Assembly (NCBI GenBank): GCA_029548565.1 | Contig: JAKPNF010000146.1 | Span: 1 to 42,093 of the forward strand | Direction of reading: 5' to 3' | DNA length: 42,093 nucleotides | Source: Verrucomicrobiota bacterium | Lineage (GTDB): Bacteria > Verrucomicrobiota > Verrucomicrobiia > Opitutales > JAKPNF01 | In this document: positions 815 through 33,790 of the stretch, one piece after another | Position numbering within the stretch: the first letter of the stretch is position 1 | How the letters are laid out: every line of letters starts with the position of its first letter | Translations under genes and position numbers: made by a program | Notes under the pieces: model-generated | The model's database searches: none | What the model was told of the DNA's origin: nothing | The model's input: only the letters and a program-made list of their open reading frames with translations

Positions 815-979
815 TAGGGTGTGTTTGCAAATTAGGGATTTTGAATGCGCAGTCTGGTTTGGAGGCATTTTTTGGGGCTTCGAGCCGAGTCGATATAAAT
901 ATCGGCGAGGCGAGGACACCGAAAAAGGACCCTAATCCAGGCTGCGCAGGCGAAATTCATAATTTGAAAACACACCCTA
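815..979. mobile_element. MITE-like element copy 1 (165 bp)
   Basis: TAGGGTGTGTTTGCAAATTAGGGATTTTGAATGCGCAG ... CTGCGCAGGCGAAATTCATAATTTGAAAACACACCCTA; imperfect TIRs of about 43 bp; central palindrome CGATATAAATATCG at 891-904; related to 8495-8742 and 28898-29062. Confidence 0.85.
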
Positions 980-983
980 ATAA

Positions 984-3900
984 TCAGGGCAGCTTGACCA
1001 CCGCAGCGTCGGTGTAACCGGCGACGCACTTGGAAACCGCCTGCAGGGGCAATCCCCACAGCGCAGACACCGCCTTTGCGTAGGCGTTTAATTGCGCGCC
1101 GTAGAGTGCTTGGGCGTCGCGCGTGGAGCTTTTGAAATCGAAGATAACGGCGCTTTTGACGGTGCCGTTTTCATCGCGACACAGGTGCAGGCGGTCGATG
1201 ATGCCCTGCACGCGCGTGCCATCGACCAGCACGTCAAAAGGCAGCTCGCGCAAAATTGTTTCGTGCGCGCGCGCTTGAAAAATTTCCGCGAACGGTTTTT
1301 TTGCGAACGCCGCGCTTAAAATTTCGCGCACGCGCGCAGCTTGCGGCGTGTCGCCCAAAAGTTTTTCCGACAGCGCGGGCGCGGCGGCGCTTTCGATCGT
1401 CTCGATGCGCGAGAGCGCCGTGTGCACCGCGTTGCCCAATTCAAGCGCGGGGCTTTCACTGTCGGCCAACAGGCCGCCTTCTTGCGAGGGGGCGGCAGCC
1501 ACTTCCATTTCCCGTTCGAGAAAGGCCGGATTTTTTATCATCCTGAGCGCAGTTTGCGAATTGGCGACGGCGGTGCTGTCGTCAGCCATTTCTCCCAGCC
1601 AGTCGTCCTGCCCACAGGTGATGCTTGAAATGTTTATTTTCGGCAGCTCGCTCAAAAAATCATCCGTCAATTCCAAGTTACCCGTGTGTTCACGCACCCC
1701 TTCAAGCGCGACGAAGGCGTCCTCAATCAGGGCGCCGACGCGCGCGCGATTGGAGTGTGCCTGCTCGTCGGCGGCATCGACAAGCAGGTAGAGCGCCTGG
1801 CGCGGGCGCGTGAGCGCCACGTACAGGCGGCACAGCGCGTCAAACCCGCTCTCGTTTTGCAGGCGCTCGTGATTGTTCCACAGCGTCGCGTCCATCTCGC
1901 AAAAGAGCTTGGGCGGCAGATAGAGCGCCATGTGGCCGTCGCGCGCGTTTTCAACACGGCAAAGCCCCTGCGGGCTTTGCGGCGTGTTGTCGCACAAATC
2001 CGGCAGGACAACCATGTCGAACTCCAGCCCCTTGGCCTTGTGGATGGTCATCACCTGCACGGCCCCCTGCCCCGCGCCCAGGCGCACGCGCATTGTAGTT
2101 AAAAATTCAATACACTCGCGCAGCGACCCGCCGCGCCGGTCAAACTCGCGGCAGGCCTCCTGCAGGCGTTCGAGGTTGTCCGCCCAGAAGCGATTGCCCG
2201 GGCCGTCTTTCAAAAGCCCCCGCACAAAATCGGCGTACGCCCGCGCGAAAGAGGCCGTCCCGTTTTGGGAAATGTCCGCGAGGGTTTCGCGCACAAACGT
2301 TTCGTCCATCCCGCGTGCGAAGCCCCCGAATAGCGGCGTCATTTTAAGCGCCTCGAGCGCGGCGGCGTCGGCCGGATGCGCCAGGCAGCGCAGCAATTGC
2401 AAAAAGGCCGGCACCTCCATGCCGCCGCCGGACAGCGGCAACTCCAGCTCCGCGTCGACCGGCATCTCGATACCCTCTTGTTGCGCGCGACGGTTCAGGT
2501 AGGCGGCCAGCTCGCGGGCAGTGGCGTTGCGCCCGACCAAAATCGCGCACGATTTCCCGCGCTGCACGGGTCGCGTCTCGTTCAAAATCGAGAAAACCGC
2601 CTCGTAAAGCGCGCGCTTGTTGAGGCGGTTGATCTCCCTGCGCTCGGGCGCCTGCCCCGCAAAATCGGCGCTTGCGAGTTTTTCGATCTTGTCGAGCCGC
2701 ACAAAGGACGGCAGCGCCGCGTTGGGCGCGGCGACGCTGTGCGGGGTGAACAGTTTTTTGCAAAAATCATCCGCCGCCCATTGCCCGAAAATCTCGCCCG
2801 TCAAATCCGTGTCCCGGCCAAACAGCGCGTTGACCAGCCCTATTATTTTCGGCCCGGAACGCCAGGAGGTGTTCAGCGCCTCGCCCTCTACAATACGCCC
2901 GTGCGCCTGTTCAAACACCTCGTCGAACAAAAGCCGGTCGCCGCCGCGCCACGAGTAGATGGACTGCTTGGGATCGCCCACATAAAAGAAAGTACGCTGG
3001 CCACTGTCGTCCTGTAGCGCCTCGTCCACGAGGTTTTTAAAGACATCCCACTGGCGGCGCGAGGTGTCCTGAAACTCGTCAAACAGCCAGTGCGTGTAAT
3101 GGGCGTCGAGGCGCTGCTGGCACAGCAGCCAGTCCAACTGCGCCTCGGGATCGGTCAGCAAGAGCAAGACATCCGCAAAGCCGATCAGCCCGCGCGCGCG
3201 CAAAACACGCGCGCATTCGCGCTCGTAATCCAGCGCAATCTCGCGCAGCGCACGGGCGGCCTCGCACGCACGGTGCAGGCGCAAACGCAGCGCGTTTTGC
3301 ATGAGAAAAGTAAGCGCCTCGGCCAAGTCCGCGCCCAGCGCGTGCTTTTTTTTCCGGAACAAAAATTCGAAGCCTTCCCGTATAATTCCGTGTTCGCGAA
3401 AATGGCCGACGAGCTGCTTTAAGACGGTGGGATAAGCGCCCGGGCTTTCTTCCGGCGCCTCCAAAATCCCGATCGCCCCGTCGAGCATGGGCGCGTAACC
3501 GTAACGCTCGCCAAGCGCGCGCGTGTGCGCGGCCAGAGCCAGGTGCGCGTCCTTGTCCCACTTGAATGTTTTCAGCCCGCCGCCAAAGAATGAAAAATCA
3601 CCCCACGGCATTTCGGGCTGGCTTAGCAAAAAGTCGCGCGCGCCGTCGGCCAATTCGGTGATGCGCTCGTCCACCGATTTTTCGTCGCGCCCAAAGCTCG
3701 CCTTTTTCACCGCCTCGGAAAATTCCTCAAAGACCGCCTCGTCGTCCGCCTTGGACTGCACCACGTTTTCCAGCGCGCCGCGCCGCGCCGCCTTCGCCTG
3801 GGCGTCGTCGAGCACCTCAAACGAACCAAAGACACCCGTTTGCGACATGAACACGCCCAAAAACTGCGTGCAAAAAGAGTCGATCGTCCCCAGATTCATG

Positions 3901-4232
3901 CGCCCAAGCTCGCGCGCGCACGTTTGCAGCATTTTTAAAAAGTCCGCCCGCGCGAAATCGCCCGCACAGCCCAATTCGCGCAAAGTGGCGGCCAGCTCGG
4001 CCGCCTTTTTGTCGTCGGTCGCCGCCTGTGCAAGACGCGTGAGAATCTTGTCCAAAAATTCGCCCGCGCTTTTGCGCGTGAAAGTCAGCGCCGCGATCGC
4101 CTTGGGGTCGCCCGTGCGTGCCAACAATGCGATGAAGCGGCTTGTCAGCGCGTGCGTTTTGCCCGCGCCCGCGCAGGCGCTGCGGCGTTCCGAGCGCATG
4201 ACGGAGGGCAAGGGTTGCGCAGCGTCGTTCAT
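984..4232 (-). CDS. AddA-like UvrD/REP helicase with C-terminal PD-(D/E)XK nuclease
   Basis: Walker A-like ACAGAGKTHALTSRF; ALTFTRKSAGEF; VGDPKQSIYSWRGGD; VMTIHKAKGLEFDMVVLPDL; YVALTRPRQALYLL; C-terminal GIIDRLHL...AVIFDFKSS. Confidence 0.88.
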   Translation of the reverse strand: MNDAAQPLPSVMRSERRSACAGAGKTHALTSRFIALLARTGDPKAIAALTFTRKSAGEFLDKILTRLAQAATDDKKAAELAATLRELGCAGDFARADFLKMLQTCARELGRMNLGTIDSFCTQFLGVFMSQTGVFGSFEVLDDAQAKAARRGALENVVQSKADDEAVFEEFSEAVKKASFGRDEKSVDERITELADGARDFLLSQPEMPWGDFSFFGGGLKTFKWDKDAHLALAAHTRALGERYGYAPMLDGAIGILEAPEESPGAYPTVLKQLVGHFREHGIIREGFEFLFRKKKHALGADLAEALTFLMQNALRLRLHRACEAARALREIALDYERECARVLRARGLIGFADVLLLLTDPEAQLDWLLCQQRLDAHYTHWLFDEFQDTSRRQWDVFKNLVDEALQDDSGQRTFFYVGDPKQSIYSWRGGDRLLFDEVFEQAHGRIVEGEALNTSWRSGPKIIGLVNALFGRDTDLTGEIFGQWAADDFCKKLFTPHSVAAPNAALPSFVRLDKIEKLASADFAGQAPERREINRLNKRALYEAVFSILNETRPVQRGKSCAILVGRNATARELAAYLNRRAQQEGIEMPVDAELELPLSGGGMEVPAFLQLLRCLAHPADAAALEALKMTPLFGGFARGMDETFVRETLADISQNGTASFARAYADFVRGLLKDGPGNRFWADNLERLQEACREFDRRGGSLRECIEFLTTMRVRLGAGQGAVQVMTIHKAKGLEFDMVVLPDLCDNTPQSPQGLCRVENARDGHMALYLPPKLFCEMDATLWNNHERLQNESGFDALCRLYVALTRPRQALYLLVDAADEQAHSNRARVGALIEDAFVALEGVREHTGNLELTDDFLSELPKINISSITCGQDDWLGEMADDSTAVANSQTALRMIKNPAFLEREMEVAAAPSQEGGLLADSESPALELGNAVHTALSRIETIESAAAPALSEKLLGDTPQAARVREILSAAFAKKPFAEIFQARAHETILRELPFDVLVDGTRVQGIIDRLHLCRDENGTVKSAVIFDFKSSTRDAQALYGAQLNAYAKAVSALWGLPLQAVSKCVAGYTDAAVVKLP

Positions 4233-7075
4233 GCGGAAAACTCCACAAGATTCAGGCGGGCGAGCTGCTCCTCGTCCAGACCAAAAACGGGTTCGTAATC
4301 GTCGTAGGGCGGCTTGCCCGCGGGCGCGAAATTCCCGGCCTCGATTTGCGTGAGCACATCGCGCGCGCGCTCAAGGGCGCTGCCGAGATAATGCGTTATC
4401 GTCTCCCACGGCTCGATGACGCTTTTGGCCGCCTCGCGGGGCGTCAGAAAATAAGCCGCCGACAGCAAATCCTTATCAACAGGACACTCCCGCGCGTACG
4501 CGCACACATACAGGGGAAGCTGCAAATCCGTCCAGCGCAGCAGCTCGGGCGGCGTGCCGTCTTCTTTCGAACGAAACGCAAAATGGCCGTGACGGCGCAT
4601 GGCCTCGTTCGTGTCTATGGAGTCAAAGGTTTTGTAATCGATGAGCATCCGGCGCCCGTCGCGCTCGTCGACGCGGTCGATTTTCCCGCGCAGCGTCCAG
4701 CCGCCCAATTGCAATTCGCACGGAAGTTCGACATCCGTAATCCGCCAACCCTGCGCGCGCCAATCGGCCTGCACCCGCGCGGCGGCGGCAAGGCGCTGTT
4801 CGATCCCGCGCGATTGCAAGCGCACAAAGGCGTTGGGTTTTTCGCCAAAATTTTCACGCAAGAGCCGTTGAAATTCCGCTGTCAAAAAAACAGCGATTTT
4901 TTCAACGTCCGTGCTATCCTTGGGGCCGTCCGTAAAAAACGCCTGCCATGCGCCGTGGTACAAGGTGCCCAGCATGGCGGCGTCCAATTCCGCCTTTTGC
5001 GCCTCGAATATCCGCGCCTTGAGCACGTGCTTCAGATAAAACTGCCACGGCGAATTGAGATAATCCTTCAACGCCGTGACGCTCAGCGTCTTTTTCTCCA
5101 AGCCGACGCGCCGCGCTTTCAATTTCCAGGGCGCGGCAAAACTCGGGCGGCGGCCTTCCTTCGCGGCGGTTCCAAAAAGCAGTTTTATGCGCGCGGGCAA
5201 TGCGTCGATCGCCGTTTGCATCAGCAAGCGCGAGGGTTTTAACGGGTCTTCTTTAAGCGAGCGCTGCGGGCACAGCAAATGGCAGGCGCTGCCCTGCCCC
5301 GAGCGCGAGCGGCGCAGCGCCTCGAGCATATGGGCGTCGCGCGCGTGGCGCAATTTGGCCGTGCGCAGTCCCAGGTGCTCGCGCAGGGAATCGTTCAAAA
5401 ACGCGCCGCCGCCCAAGGCCATCGGCAGCGTGCCCTCGTTCATGTCGGCCAGAACCACGTGCGGGGCGCGCGACCAAAAAACACCCATCCAGTTCTCCAG
5501 CACAAGCGCGTGCGCGTCGCGCGGGCGCGCGGGAGCCGCCTTTAGGGTTTGTATCAAATATTTAACTACAGGCACTATCTCCATCCGCTGCCGCGTGCGC
5601 GCGATTTCCCGCAGCGTTTGCCGCGCCAGCTCGCAGGCGCGGCGTTCCTGCTCGGCAAACGCGCCCGTGCGCTCAAATGCCCCGCACCATTGCTCAAGCA
5701 AGTGCTCCAGCGCCTTGAGCGTATCGCCCGTTTGCAACTCTCCCAGTATCCGCCGCGCCCATTGCAGCGCCTCGATGGCCTTTTGTTCGCTTTCGCCCAC
5801 GCGGCCGCGTTCGAGCAAGGCGCACGCCTCGGACACATTTGCGGGCAGCAAATCTTTTTGGGCGTGGTCGAGCGCCTTTTGCAATTCGCGCAACGGTAAA
5901 TCAAAGCGCTGCTCGACAAACGTAAAGACACATGGCTCGTTTAAAAAATCGCGCACATTTAAAAAAGTGCCTTGCCGCAAACAAAGTTCCAAGCGCCGCA
6001 ACAGCGAGCAAATAGCCGTCAAGGCGAGCGTGCAGCCCTCGGCCGCTCGCGCTTCAAGAGCGGCATCGCGGTGCAAGGCGTCCTGCAACAGCGGCGCGCT
6101 TTGTTCCTGCTCGCAAGCGATGGCCAGCGCGCCGCGTGCCGCCCGGCCGTACCCAGCCGCCAGCTCGCTGATGCGGCGCGCTTGCGCGCGCACATCGGCA
6201 CACACGCTGATATCCGCCGCGTCCAGCTCCAATTCCCTCTCGCAAAATTTCTGCGTGGGCACGCCCCACTCATCAAAGAGGCGCTTCTGAGAATCATCGG
6301 CAAACACCAGCGTTGTCAGGCGCGCGGGTTCGCCCGCGCAGGTGTTGGCCAGCGCGCTTAAAAAAACACTCTGCACACGCGAAAGTTCCGCATGGCCGAC
6401 CAGAACAATTTCTTTCCATGGGTGCGCGGGCGGATTGCGCGCGGCCAGCATGAGCGCCTGGGCGCGCGACGGCTGCCCGAACGCGCGGCAACGCTCGTGA
6501 AACAAATCCTCCAACGCGCCCAAATCTGTCCAAAGCGGATCGGAAAAACCGGACGCCTCCAGCGCCTGCGCCGCCGTGCGGATCGTGTGGAAATTTTCCG
6601 TCAACGCGCCTTGCAGGGCCTCGATCTGGCCGACAAAATCGGAGATTTCCGCGGGCTCGGGCTTGCGGCGGGCAAAAAGTTCCGGGAAATCTTCTTTCCG
6701 CGCATCCGCGAGCGTTTGCACCCATGCGCACCACTGCGCGGGATGCGAGAGCGCCGGCGCGCCCGCGAGCGCCCAGTCGAAAAGCTCCTCAAAGGTTTTA
6801 AATTGCAGCGACAGCGCCCCCGCCGCGCCGCCTTGCGCCAGTTTTTGCAAAAACGCCGCGCGCACATTCTCGCCCGCGCGGTGTGCGGGCACGACAAAAA
6901 GCGTGTCCAAAAAATCGGCGGGCGGGTGTTTTATTTTTTCGCCAAACGCCTGCGCCATCCAGCCTGCCACACAGTCGGGCAATGGCACCTGCGGCGTGAT
7001 GAACACACGTCGGGGCGCGGGGGACTGGGCGGGTTCTTGCGTCATTGCGTTGGCACTAAAATGTGACTGCGCCAT
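4229..7075 (-). CDS. AddB-like PD-(D/E)XK nuclease / inactivated-helicase protein
   Basis: 4-bp overlap with the downstream helicase; C-terminal LRGKIDRVDERDGRRMLIDYKTFDS nuclease motif; LSVTALKDYLNSPWQFYLKHVL. Confidence 0.8.
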   Translation of the reverse strand: MAQSHFSANAMTQEPAQSPAPRRVFITPQVPLPDCVAGWMAQAFGEKIKHPPADFLDTLFVVPAHRAGENVRAAFLQKLAQGGAAGALSLQFKTFEELFDWALAGAPALSHPAQWCAWVQTLADARKEDFPELFARRKPEPAEISDFVGQIEALQGALTENFHTIRTAAQALEASGFSDPLWTDLGALEDLFHERCRAFGQPSRAQALMLAARNPPAHPWKEIVLVGHAELSRVQSVFLSALANTCAGEPARLTTLVFADDSQKRLFDEWGVPTQKFCERELELDAADISVCADVRAQARRISELAAGYGRAARGALAIACEQEQSAPLLQDALHRDAALEARAAEGCTLALTAICSLLRRLELCLRQGTFLNVRDFLNEPCVFTFVEQRFDLPLRELQKALDHAQKDLLPANVSEACALLERGRVGESEQKAIEALQWARRILGELQTGDTLKALEHLLEQWCGAFERTGAFAEQERRACELARQTLREIARTRQRMEIVPVVKYLIQTLKAAPARPRDAHALVLENWMGVFWSRAPHVVLADMNEGTLPMALGGGAFLNDSLREHLGLRTAKLRHARDAHMLEALRRSRSGQGSACHLLCPQRSLKEDPLKPSRLLMQTAIDALPARIKLLFGTAAKEGRRPSFAAPWKLKARRVGLEKKTLSVTALKDYLNSPWQFYLKHVLKARIFEAQKAELDAAMLGTLYHGAWQAFFTDGPKDSTDVEKIAVFLTAEFQRLLRENFGEKPNAFVRLQSRGIEQRLAAAARVQADWRAQGWRITDVELPCELQLGGWTLRGKIDRVDERDGRRMLIDYKTFDSIDTNEAMRRHGHFAFRSKEDGTPPELLRWTDLQLPLYVCAYARECPVDKDLLSAAYFLTPREAAKSVIEPWETITHYLGSALERARDVLTQIEAGNFAPAGKPPYDDYEPVFGLDEEQLARLNLVEFSA

Positions 7076-7225: not shown

Positions 7226-8497
7226 ATGCATCCTTATATCGAAAAACTCAACGAGTGGCTTGTGGAAAAAAACCTGATCGGCCAGCCCGATTCGATAGTC
7301 GGCAACCTCGTCGTGTTCGCGGCGATTGTCGCGCTGGCGCTGTTCATCCACTTTGTGTTCAAGGGGCTTATTTTAAAGGCGTTCACCCGGCTGGCCGCCC
7401 GCACAAAAACGCGCTTTGACGACATGATCGTCGAGCACAAGCTGCTCGACCGGCTTATCAGCATTATCCCGGCCATCCTGCTGGCCGTGCTGCTGCCGCT
7501 GGCGTTTCCGGAAAAAGATTTCCCGACCCTGCTGCCGCTATTGAGGAAACTGTGCGCCGTCTACGTGCTGTTTGTGGGCATCCGCTTCTTCTATGCGCTG
7601 ATGGACCTGCTGCACGTGGTGTTCTTGCAAAAGAACACCGGCAAACACAAGCCGTTCAAAAGTTTCATTCAGGTGGTGAAGGTCGTGCTGTTTGTACTGG
7701 GGCTTTTGCTGACCGTCAGCATCATGACGGGGGAGCGGCTCAACAGCCTGTTGCTGGGCCTGGGCGCCTCGACCTTGATTCTGACAATGGTCTTTCAGGA
7801 CATGATACGCGGGCTGGTGGCCGGCGTGCAGCTTTCCATTAACGACATGCTGCATATCGGCGACTGGATCACCCTGCCCAAATACGGCGCGGACGGCGAC
7901 GTGATCGACGTGTCGCTGACGGTCGTCAAGGTGCGCAACTTCGACAACACCGTTACCACCATCCCGCCTTACGTGCTGATCTCGGAGTCCTTCCAAAACT
8001 GGCGCGCGATGTCGGACTCCGGCGGGCGACGCATCAAGCGCTCGATCAACATCGATATGCACAGCGTGCATTTTTGCTCGGAGGAAATGCTTAAAAAATT
8101 CCGCAAAATCGCCCTGCTAAAGGATTATATTGACAAAAAGGAGCAGGAACTGCGCGATTACAACGAGCGCCACGACTTGGACGCCTCGGTTTGGGTCAAC
8201 GGACGGCGCCAGACAAACCTGGGCGTTTTTCGCGCCTACATTGAGCGGTACTTAAAACAACACCCCAGCGTCAATCACAACCAGACCTGCATGGTGCGCC
8301 AGTTGCAACCGACCGAAAAGGGCATCCCCATCGAGCTTTACTTTTTCAGCGCCGACGTGCGCTGGATCCCGTATGAAGACTTCCAGTCGGACGTGTTTGA
8401 CCACATCATCGCCATCGTCCCGGAATTCGGCCTGACCGTCTACCAGAACATCTCCGGCGAAGACATCCGCGGGGCGCTTGCGCGCATCAAGGATTAG
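7226..8497 (+). CDS. MscS-family mechanosensitive channel (YbdG-like)
   Basis: LLLGLGASTLILTMVFQDMIRGLVAGVQLSINDMLHIGDWITLPKYGADGDVIDVSLTVVKVRNFDNTVTTIPPYVLISESFQNW. Confidence 0.9.
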   Translation: MHPYIEKLNEWLVEKNLIGQPDSIVGNLVVFAAIVALALFIHFVFKGLILKAFTRLAARTKTRFDDMIVEHKLLDRLISIIPAILLAVLLPLAFPEKDFPTLLPLLRKLCAVYVLFVGIRFFYALMDLLHVVFLQKNTGKHKPFKSFIQVVKVVLFVLGLLLTVSIMTGERLNSLLLGLGASTLILTMVFQDMIRGLVAGVQLSINDMLHIGDWITLPKYGADGDVIDVSLTVVKVRNFDNTVTTIPPYVLISESFQNWRAMSDSGGRRIKRSINIDMHSVHFCSEEMLKKFRKIALLKDYIDKKEQELRDYNERHDLDASVWVNGRRQTNLGVFRAYIERYLKQHPSVNHNQTCMVRQLQPTEKGIPIELYFFSADVRWIPYEDFQSDVFDHIIAIVPEFGLTVYQNISGEDIRGALARIKD

Positions 8498-8742
8498 GGT
8501 GTGTCTTCAAATTAGGGATTTTGAATGTGCGGTCTGGTTTTGAGGCATTTTTTGGGGCTCCGAGCCGAGGCGATGGGATCATCGTCGAGGCGAGGACACC
8601 AAAAAAGAACCATAAAGCGAGCTATTTATAAGCGAGTGGCATGGGCGGGTGCGCAGCACCCAATACGAAGCATTGTTGGCGTTCAGCCAACACCCAAATC
8701 CAAACTGCGCAGGCGGAATTCATAATTTGAAGACACCCCCTA
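8495..8742. mobile_element. MITE-like element copy 2 (248 bp; 83-bp internal insertion)
   Basis: Same ends (TAGGGTGTGTCTTCAAATTAGG...AATTTGAAGACACCCCCTA) and core as copy 1; central stem CGATGGGATCATCG at 8571-8584; extra 8612-8694. Confidence 0.85.
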
Positions 8743-28794: not shown

Positions 28795-28838
28795 GGAGGA
28801 AGGAGAAAAAAAGGGAGAGTAGAAGGAATTAAAAAAAT

Positions 28839-28897
28839 GCGGGGAAAACTTTTTTAAAATAAAAAAAGTCTTCCCCGCACCCCTTTCAAAAAAATTT
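28839..28897 (+). repeat. Two-hairpin repeat copy b, H1 plus linker (H2 displaced to 29063-29082 by MITE copy 3)
   Basis: GCGGGGAAAACTTTTTT-aaaat-AAAAAAAGTCTTCCCCGC + ACCCCTTTCAAAAAAATTTT. Confidence 0.8.
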
Positions 28898-29062
28898 TAG
28901 GGTGTGTTTTCGAATTAGGGATTTTGAATGCGCGGGCTGGCTTGGAGGCATTTTTTGGGGCTTCGAGCCGAGGCGATATTTATATCGTCGAGGCGAGGAC
29001 ACCAAAAAAGGACCCAAGTCCAGACTGTGCAGGCGAAATTCATAATTCGAAAATGCACCCTA
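28898..29062. mobile_element. MITE-like element copy 3 (165 bp)
   Basis: TAGGGTGTGTTTTCGAATTAGGGATTTTGAATGCGCGGG...TGTGCAGGCGAAATTCATAATTCGAAAATGCACCCTA; central stem CGATATTTATATCG at 28974-28987. Confidence 0.88.
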
Positions 29063-29082
29063 GGACGGATGCTGGCGCATCC
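29063..29082 (+). repeat. H2 hairpin of two-hairpin repeat copy b
   Basis: GGAC-GGATGC-tggc-GCATCC, aligning with ACGAC-GGGTGC-tgc-GCACCC in the 33493 copy. Confidence 0.65.
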
Positions 29083-29105
29083 TTGTGTCGTTCGGTTCGT
29101 GGTTT

Positions 29106-29489: not shown

Positions 29490-29539
29490 AGGAAAAATCT
29501 TCGAAGATTGCGCCCACAAAGGCAAGACCCAAGCGCCGT

Positions 29540-29629
29540 TTCGGGTGCGCAGCACCCGTCGTAAAAGTTTTTTGGGAAAGGGGGCGCGGGGGAAAGCCCT
29601 TTTTTTTCAAAAAAGGGTTTTCCCCGCAT
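29540..29629 (-). repeat. Two-hairpin repeat copy c (minus orientation)
   Basis: H1 29586-29627 and H2 CGGGTGCGCAGCACCCG 29542-29558, joined by GTCGTAAAAGTTTTTTGGGAAAGGGGGC; reverse complement closely matches 33493-33575. Confidence 0.88.
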
Positions 29630-29664
29630 CCATCATCCTTCCCTAATCCAAAACATTTCCTTCC

Positions 29665-32634: not shown

Positions 32635-33486
32635 ATGTTTTCCTCTCTCGCCTACTGGGTGCACAACCTCGACCCCTTTGTGGTACGCTTCCCCGACGGC
32701 TGGCCGACCGACGGCATCCGCTGGTACGGCCTAGCCTACCTCATGGGCTTTCTCGTCGGCTGGGCGCTCCTGCATCTCTATTACAAAAAAGGCCGCTCGC
32801 CCCTAAACCTCGAAGCGCAGGCCAACCTCATGACTTACCTCATCCTCGGCGTGCTCGTCGGCGGACGGCTGGGTTATTGTCTGCTCTACGCGTTGCCCGA
32901 ATGGAGCCGCGACCCGCTGCTCATCCTGCGCGTCTGGGAAGGCGGCATGGCCAGCCATGGTGGCTTTCTAGGCGTCATCATCGCCCTCATAATCTTCGCA
33001 AAACGCAACCACCTGCCCTTCACCGCGCTGGGCGACATCGTCGTCACCCTCGTCCCCCCCGGCCTGCTCTTCGGCCGCATCGCCAATTTCATCAACGGCG
33101 AACTCTGGGGCAAACTCAGCGACGCCCCCTGGGCCGTCATCTTCCCCAAAAGCGCCCCCCCCGGCATCCCCGTAGAATTCATCGCCGCCCGCCACCCCTC
33201 CCAACTCTACGAAGCCCTCCTCGAAGGCCTCCTGCTCCTAATCCTAACCCAGTGGCTCTTCTGGCGCAAAAACCCCAGCACCCCCCACAACGGCCAACTC
33301 TCCGGCATCTTCCTGATCACTTACGCCCTCGTGCGCATCCTGTGCGAATGCTTCCGCGAACCAGACGCCACTCTCATCCTCGGCCTAAGCCGCGGCACGT
33401 TTTATTCGTTGTTTTTAATTTTATTGGGCGCGCTGTTTATTTGGAACGCGTGGCGGCACGGTAAGAAGGGAAAGAGTTTTGGATGA
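32635..33486 (+). CDS. lgt: Prolipoprotein diacylglyceryl transferase
   Basis: IRWYGLAYLMGFLVGW, VGGRLGYCL, GGMASHGGFLG, LLFGRIANFINGELWG, RHPSQLYEALLEG, LCECFREPD. Confidence 0.95.
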   Translation: MFSSLAYWVHNLDPFVVRFPDGWPTDGIRWYGLAYLMGFLVGWALLHLYYKKGRSPLNLEAQANLMTYLILGVLVGGRLGYCLLYALPEWSRDPLLILRVWEGGMASHGGFLGVIIALIIFAKRNHLPFTALGDIVVTLVPPGLLFGRIANFINGELWGKLSDAPWAVIFPKSAPPGIPVEFIAARHPSQLYEALLEGLLLLILTQWLFWRKNPSTPHNGQLSGIFLITYALVRILCECFREPDATLILGLSRGTFYSLFLILLGALFIWNAWRHGKKGKSFG

Positions 33487-33492
33487 GTGGAT

Positions 33493-33591
33493 GCGGGGAA
33501 AACCTTTTTTTGAAAAAAAAGGTCTTCCCCGCGCCCCTTTCCCAAAAAACTTTTACGACGGGTGCTGCGCACCCGAAACCACGGTGCACTG
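33493..33591 (+). repeat. Two-hairpin repeat copy d (plus orientation)
   Basis: H1 GCGGGGAAAACCTTTTTTTGAAAAAAAAGGTCTTCCCCGC 33493-33532; linker GCCCCTTTCCCAAAAAACTTTTACGA; H2 CGGGTGC-tgc-GCACCCG 33559-33575; then GGTGCACTG 33583-33591. Confidence 0.9.
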
Positions 33592-33630: not shown

Positions 33631-33740
33631 CAGTGCACCCGCACGAACTTTCAGATGCGCAGCATCTGTCACAAAAGTTTTTTCGGGAAGGGGGGCGCGG
33701 GGGGAAACCCGTTTTTTCCAAAAAACGGGTTTCCCCCCGC
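33631..33740 (-). repeat. Two-hairpin repeat copy e (minus orientation; head-to-head with copy d)
   Basis: CAGTGCACC 33631-33639; H2 CAGATGC-gca-GCATCTG 33652-33668; H1 perfect 21-bp stem GCGGGGGGAAACCCGTTTTTT-cc-AAAAAACGGGTTTCCCCCCGC 33697-33740. Confidence 0.9.
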
Positions 33741-33790
33741 ATCCTCATCATCCTTCCTCCCCGAAAAAATCTTACCCGTGCTTTTGCACC

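Follow-up and report, generated by a model that had tools for sequence, protein, structure and literature searches.

The 165-bp repeat at positions 815–979 of the window, the whole analysed stretch of 42,093 nucleotides, belongs to a mobile family of IS5-type MITEs (family A) that is ordinary as to its kind and unusual in its interior. It is very probable that the element is moved in trans at YTAR sites and that its core is selected for the folding of a single strand, most likely as RNA.

Copies of Family A in the Window and Its Genome

The window corresponds to contig 15 of a 2.14-Mb genome comprising 170 contigs, and contains the following copies:

815–979, + strand: MITE copy 1 (165 bp, family A), flanked by convergent genes, of which the upstream one ends at 812 and the downstream one has its stop at 984
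815–816, no strand: TA at the left end of MITE copy 1, proposed to form a 2-bp target duplication with the TA at 978–979 on the basis of paralogous empty sites elsewhere in the genome
8495–8742, + strand: MITE copy 2 (165 bp, with a precise insertion of about 83 bp that contains module B), between convergent genes
28898–29062, + strand: MITE copy 3 (165 bp), at a TA within a family-C repeat

The coordinates, lengths (165, 248, and 165 bp), TA ends and inverted repeats of these copies all agree with those given in the initial annotation, which had also proposed that each copy could form a long hairpin and that the window encodes no transposase. Consistently, the predicted fold of 815–979 has an energy of -92.4 kcal/mol (z = -11.3), equalled by none of 200 shuffled sequences, and no transposase was detected by domain search of the main ORFs of the window. 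The grouping of the three copies into one family is correct as far as their relatedness is concerned; the 248-bp copy, however, is not a longer version of the repeat but a 165-bp element that contains a different, dispersed repeat.

As anticipated, the copies in the window are not the only ones. Blastn detected further copies in the same genome, with E-values down to 7e-82, and the core covariance model recovered 18 full copies (84–103 bits, the next match scoring 24 bits). Over the matched parts, identity to copy 1 is 82–91% for most copies and 74–79% for the two most divergent ones. The copies show the features of MITEs: they are short, contain no transposase gene, carry terminal inverted repeats (TIRs), and are dispersed with exact ends at unrelated flanks. 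The ends of copy 2 provide the TAG stop codons of both convergent neighbors (8497 and 8740).

Solo right ends of family A, 24–37 bp long, are present at or near gene ends (L026 1015–1038, L038 2077–2113, L040 2014–2044, and L041 2027–2061); no solo left ends were seen. These right ends were considered as remnants of a parent element and rejected, the adjacent ORFs coding for a sigma factor, a glycosyltransferase, GH32, an exo/endonuclease and a methyltransferase, with no transposases among them. At L247 (4972–5017), TAGGCAGTGTTTTCAAA and TTTGAAGACGCTGCCTAA lie nearly back to back, an element cut down to its two ends.

No Rfam match at the gathering score was obtained in the window, and at an E-value threshold no credible family was found for the loci with A and B copies. 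A scan of 85,000 genomes with a pattern of the apical core gave nine matches, all attributable to chance, and family A was absent from the viral contigs, plasmids and phages searched. The gene content next to copy 1 includes, at 984–7075 on the minus strand, a UvrD-like helicase/PD-(D/E)XK protein adjoining a second PD-(D/E)XK protein, probably an AddAB-type recombination pair.

Target Duplication

The insertion of copy 3 splits a repeat of another family, family C:

28837–28897, + strand: left part of the family-C host repeat split by copy 3
29063–29085, + strand: right part of the same family-C repeat, with the small hairpin GGATGC...GCATCC

Copy 3 and three other A copies occupy one and the same TA position within repeat C, and many C copies without an A insertion keep a single TA there, thus representing paralogous empty sites. 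The empty arrangement AAAAACTTT-TA-GGACGGATGC (L068, L072) compares with the filled TTT-TA[GGG...CCC]TA-GGACGG at 28898 and on contig C6, and the empty CTTT-TA-TGACGGATGC (L060, L069, L070) with the filled CTTT-TA[...]TA-TGACGG on contig C106. The target duplication of the copies in this genome is therefore the 2-bp TA, and the assignment of the repeat to a MITE-like, TA-bounded family holds, given the additional copies and these single-TA sites. TA flanks both sides in 9 of the 18 copies in the genome, and the remainder deviate on one or both sides. Because the four A copies in C have sequence variants in common, some of them may owe their position to the copying of C along with the A element inside it and not to independent insertion.

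Family C itself has more than 40 matches in the genome and consists, in this order, of a G/A-rich hairpin, a mirror-like CCCCCTTTCCCAAAAAACTTT stretch and a small hairpin; in the window it occurs at 28837–28897, 29538–29632, 33481–33579, and 33649–33755. It resembles intrastrand-triplex (TM) repeats (PMC4666352).

Relatives of the Element in the Order

A plain DNA search of 370 genomes of the order matched only the genome of the window and one 36-bp stretch elsewhere, so that a covariance model was needed to detect the hairpins of relatives. The core model R2 revealed the same hairpin of about 165 bp in eight further genomes of the order, of which seven belong to family f21 and one to f14, with scores up to 67 bits. 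Most of the full hairpins are bounded by YTAGG...CCTAR. The terminal sequences vary by lineage, being GGGCGTGTCTTCAAATTA in genome G038 and GAGGGCGTCTAAAAAGT in G116 and G103; the TIR of the window copies resembles that of the G020 and G038 copies. The core persists across lineages that differ in TIRs and duplication length.

A MITE Burst and an IS5-Family Parent in G116

Genome G116 contains dozens of 161-bp MITE copies with TNA duplications. A search with the terminal 15-mer gave 55 forward and 57 reverse matches there, vs. two and two for a control pattern, and the matches mostly form pairs 161 bp apart; an identical TNA triplet is found on both sides in 14 of 21 copies examined. The same genome carries an insertion sequence (IS) of about 878 bp, a length estimated from a join, as contig C38 ends and contig C32 begins within the IS and the contig ends overlap by 63 bp. 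Pieces of its ORF match the IS5 family transposase NF033580, PF13340 and PF01609 (DDE_Tnp_1). The IS and the MITE have in common an 18-bp terminal repeat, GAGGGCGTCTAAAAAGTC, and nothing recognizable further inward.

In one copy of this IS the transposase gene is split by the MITE, with TTA at both sides, while a second, 98%-identical copy (L214) has an uninterrupted site with one TTA: the filled GGACACC-TTA[161 bp]TTA-GGGCTGG of L217 vs. the empty GGACACCTTAGGGCTGG of L214. Insertion of the MITE in G116 is directly demonstrated by this filled/empty pair. The common ends of the IS and the MITE strongly suggest that the insertion was carried out by the IS5 enzyme.

The Probable Transposase of the Window Copies

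Assignment of family A to the IS5-type MITEs is well supported. The initial annotation had named either IS630/Tc1-mariner or an IS5-related group as the parent; the second of these alternatives is borne out by the parent IS of G116 and the insertion of the MITE into it, and the first is not, the DDE_3 domain being absent from the genome of the window. A MITE with an IS630/Tc1-mariner parent, which uses TA targets, would agree with the 2-bp TA duplication and the TA-bounded ends, but the lack of DDE_3 and the IS5-family ends and TNA duplication of the homologous elements in a relative make this origin quite improbable. Mobilization as single-stranded DNA by a Y1 transposase, in the manner of REP/RAYT hairpins, could account for a palindromic, intergenic element with conserved mismatches and single-strand folding. 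It is extremely improbable, since no Y1_Tnp domain was found in the genome of the window, and a length of 165 bp with TIRs and target duplications does not fit such hairpins.

The G116 IS itself cannot be the parent of the window copies, because its TIR differs from theirs and the duplication is 3 bp in G116 vs. 2 bp in the genome of the window. An autonomous partner with common terminal repeats is present in G116 and was not found in those stretches of the window's genome that were examined: the G116 IS5 protein gave no tblastn match over about 0.8 Mb (with overlaps) of the 2.14 Mb, and no IS5 transposase was found in 40 further sampled contigs. We infer that an IS5-type transposase moved these copies as well. 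In the proposed mechanism, an IS5-family DDE transposase acting in trans would recognize the terminal inverted repeats (GGGTGTGTTTTCAAATTA... in the window copies), the element would be inserted at a YTAR sequence, in many cases at the stop codon of a gene or just beyond it, and subsequent repair would duplicate the TA (TNA in the G116 lineage).

The Conserved Folded Core

The most conserved part of the element is a core of about 78 nt, located in the window as follows:

859–936, + strand: folded core of copy 1, with tandem GA motifs at 882–883/912–913 and 887–888/907–908
8539–8616, + strand: folded core of copy 2
28942–29019, + strand: folded core of copy 3

Core sequences were compared using 52 matches from nine genomes (50 sense and 2 antisense rows) fitted to the covariance model, an alignment that by its construction leans towards structure. 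In this model-fitted alignment, with related copies included, 21 of 23 core pairs have changes on both sides. Double-change cells number 228, vs. 81.8 ± 6.0 in shuffled alignments and 38–69 in slid controls, counts that are inflated by related copies. The full-length hairpin, assessed in a MAFFT alignment of the 18 copies of the window's genome that was not fitted to a model, points in the same direction, with 21 of 67 pairs and 53 cells vs. 14.6 ± 3.0, the counts again being inflated by relatedness. The core contains two tandem GA/GA motifs 3 bp apart; among the 50 sense rows, their GA elements are kept in 49, 50, 50, and 48.

Where Watson-Crick pairing is the norm, G-T cells exceed A-C cells by 38:12 and 50:8 (related copies inflate these counts too), the two being closer in the terminal arm (15:8). 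Such an excess is tolerable as G·U only on the given strand, which points to folding of one strand of the core, as RNA more than as DNA. Very probably, selection maintains the folding of one strand of the core, and the folded molecule is most likely RNA, within transcripts reading through the 3′ ends of genes; its RNA-level role is what we infer from the pattern of substitutions. In crude ORF calls, 48 of 58 copies adjoin at least one gene 3′ end (22 in convergent and 26 in tandem settings, the remaining 10 being divergent), and the orientation of copies relative to genes in tandem settings (17 sense, 9 antisense) shows no significant bias. As a best guess, the core fold would block or process read-through transcripts, and this could make insertions at gene ends tolerable.

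The paired changes could alternatively be mutational, produced by template switching in a long palindrome that mends one arm from the other. Correction of long quasi-palindromes by template switching is a known process. It would, however, remove the tandem GA mismatches as well as the G-T pairs, both of which are kept across families, and we regard this origin of the covariation as improbable.

The same data can be read with the fold in the foreground, as a structured RNA gene or 3′-end RNA element under selection to which the transposon-like ends are secondary. The covariation of the core, its nearly invariant tandem GA motifs and strand-specific G-U tolerance, its retention while TIRs and duplication length switch between lineages, and the many copies adjoining gene 3′ ends are all consistent with this. 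The exact ends, the target duplications, the insertion in a transposase gene and in other repeats, and the burst in G116 speak instead for transposition, and the idea of secondary ends is rather doubtful. A broader formulation, which we put forward tentatively, is that of a mobile structured RNA: a fold of about 78 nt with two tandem G·A motifs, conserved in several bacterial families, borne in turn by different IS5-type TIRs and acting in transcripts at gene 3′ ends, so that the family is defined by the core rather than by the transposon ends. The transposon and structured-RNA views are compatible, describing a mobile element with a functional fold.

Composite Copy 2 and Module B

The extra sequence in MITE copy 2 is a repeat of its own:

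8616–8693, + strand: module B (78 bp), a dispersed repeat with four hairpins, distinct from family A and belonging to the same genome

Removal of 83 bp from 8495–8742 restores an exact 165-bp element. Module B has about 22 copies in the genome, and it is present in three A copies whose flanks are unrelated (at 8495 and on contigs C108 and C135), as would be predicted for a composite moving in one piece. The module comprises a tandem-GA helix with a YATTTATAA loop followed by three small hairpins with mostly GNA-type loops (also in L082–L101), and occupies the tip of hairpin repeats belonging to three unrelated families, A, C and D. Family D (L090, L091, L093, L095, L096, L099) is a repeat of about 300 nt that is predicted to form a long multi-helix fold around module B and has no credible Rfam match.

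A covariance model of module B (R1), in which 7 of 21 pairs covary, has matches in five relatives within the order. Their B-like elements are located near tRNA genes (Tyr, Ser, Glu), and those following tRNA-Tyr (L103) and tRNA-Ser (L105) terminate in a copy of the tRNA 3′ end; the L105 elements form a tandem pair 175 bp apart. RtT-like elements extend over 1345–1600 of L103 and 57–500 of L105, which suggests that RtT may be a much wider, repeat-forming family. The likeness to RtT RNA (RF00391) concerns module B only: the L105 elements match it over its full length at 31.5 bits, under the gathering score of 45. In contrast, module B of the window's genome sits in hairpin repeats away from tRNA genes, none of which were found near its copies. 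Literature searches covering rtT and MITEs like these returned nothing relevant to family A.

Comparison With Known Systems

MITEs are usually viewed as internally deleted elements or as arbitrary filler between transposase binding sites. In family A the filler is the most conserved part, shows compensatory change on one strand and outlasts the replacement of one set of terminal repeats by another. Should the core act as RNA, family A would provide a natural setting in which to ask whether small transposons survive by carrying a fold that is useful or reduces harm; the parent IS and the near-identical copies of G116 make this question testable.

The G116 copies resemble IS5-family insertion sequences (NF033580, transpos_IS5_3) and their MITEs in the common 18-bp TIRs, the TNA duplication and the presence of the parent in the same genome. 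Family A differs in that beyond the first 18 bp or so its interior has no sequence in common with the G116 parent, so that it is not a deletion derivative of the IS, and in that a conserved folded core is paired with different terminal repeats by lineage.

Correia/NEMIS, RUP, ERIC and Yersinia palindromic elements are intergenic repeats of about 100–170 bp forming a long hairpin; several are TA-ended, some have a defined internal insert, and their parents belong to other families. The bcr1 repeat of the Bacillus cereus group is mobile and has a conserved RNA-like fold, with hosts and a duplication length different from those of family A. By description, not by sequence, family A is similar to bcr1 in combining mobility with a conserved RNA-like fold. 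On the same descriptive basis, it is similar in size, hairpin and TA ends to the Correia/NEMIS, RUP, ERIC and Yersinia palindromic elements; a review of these elements is available (PMC2229807).
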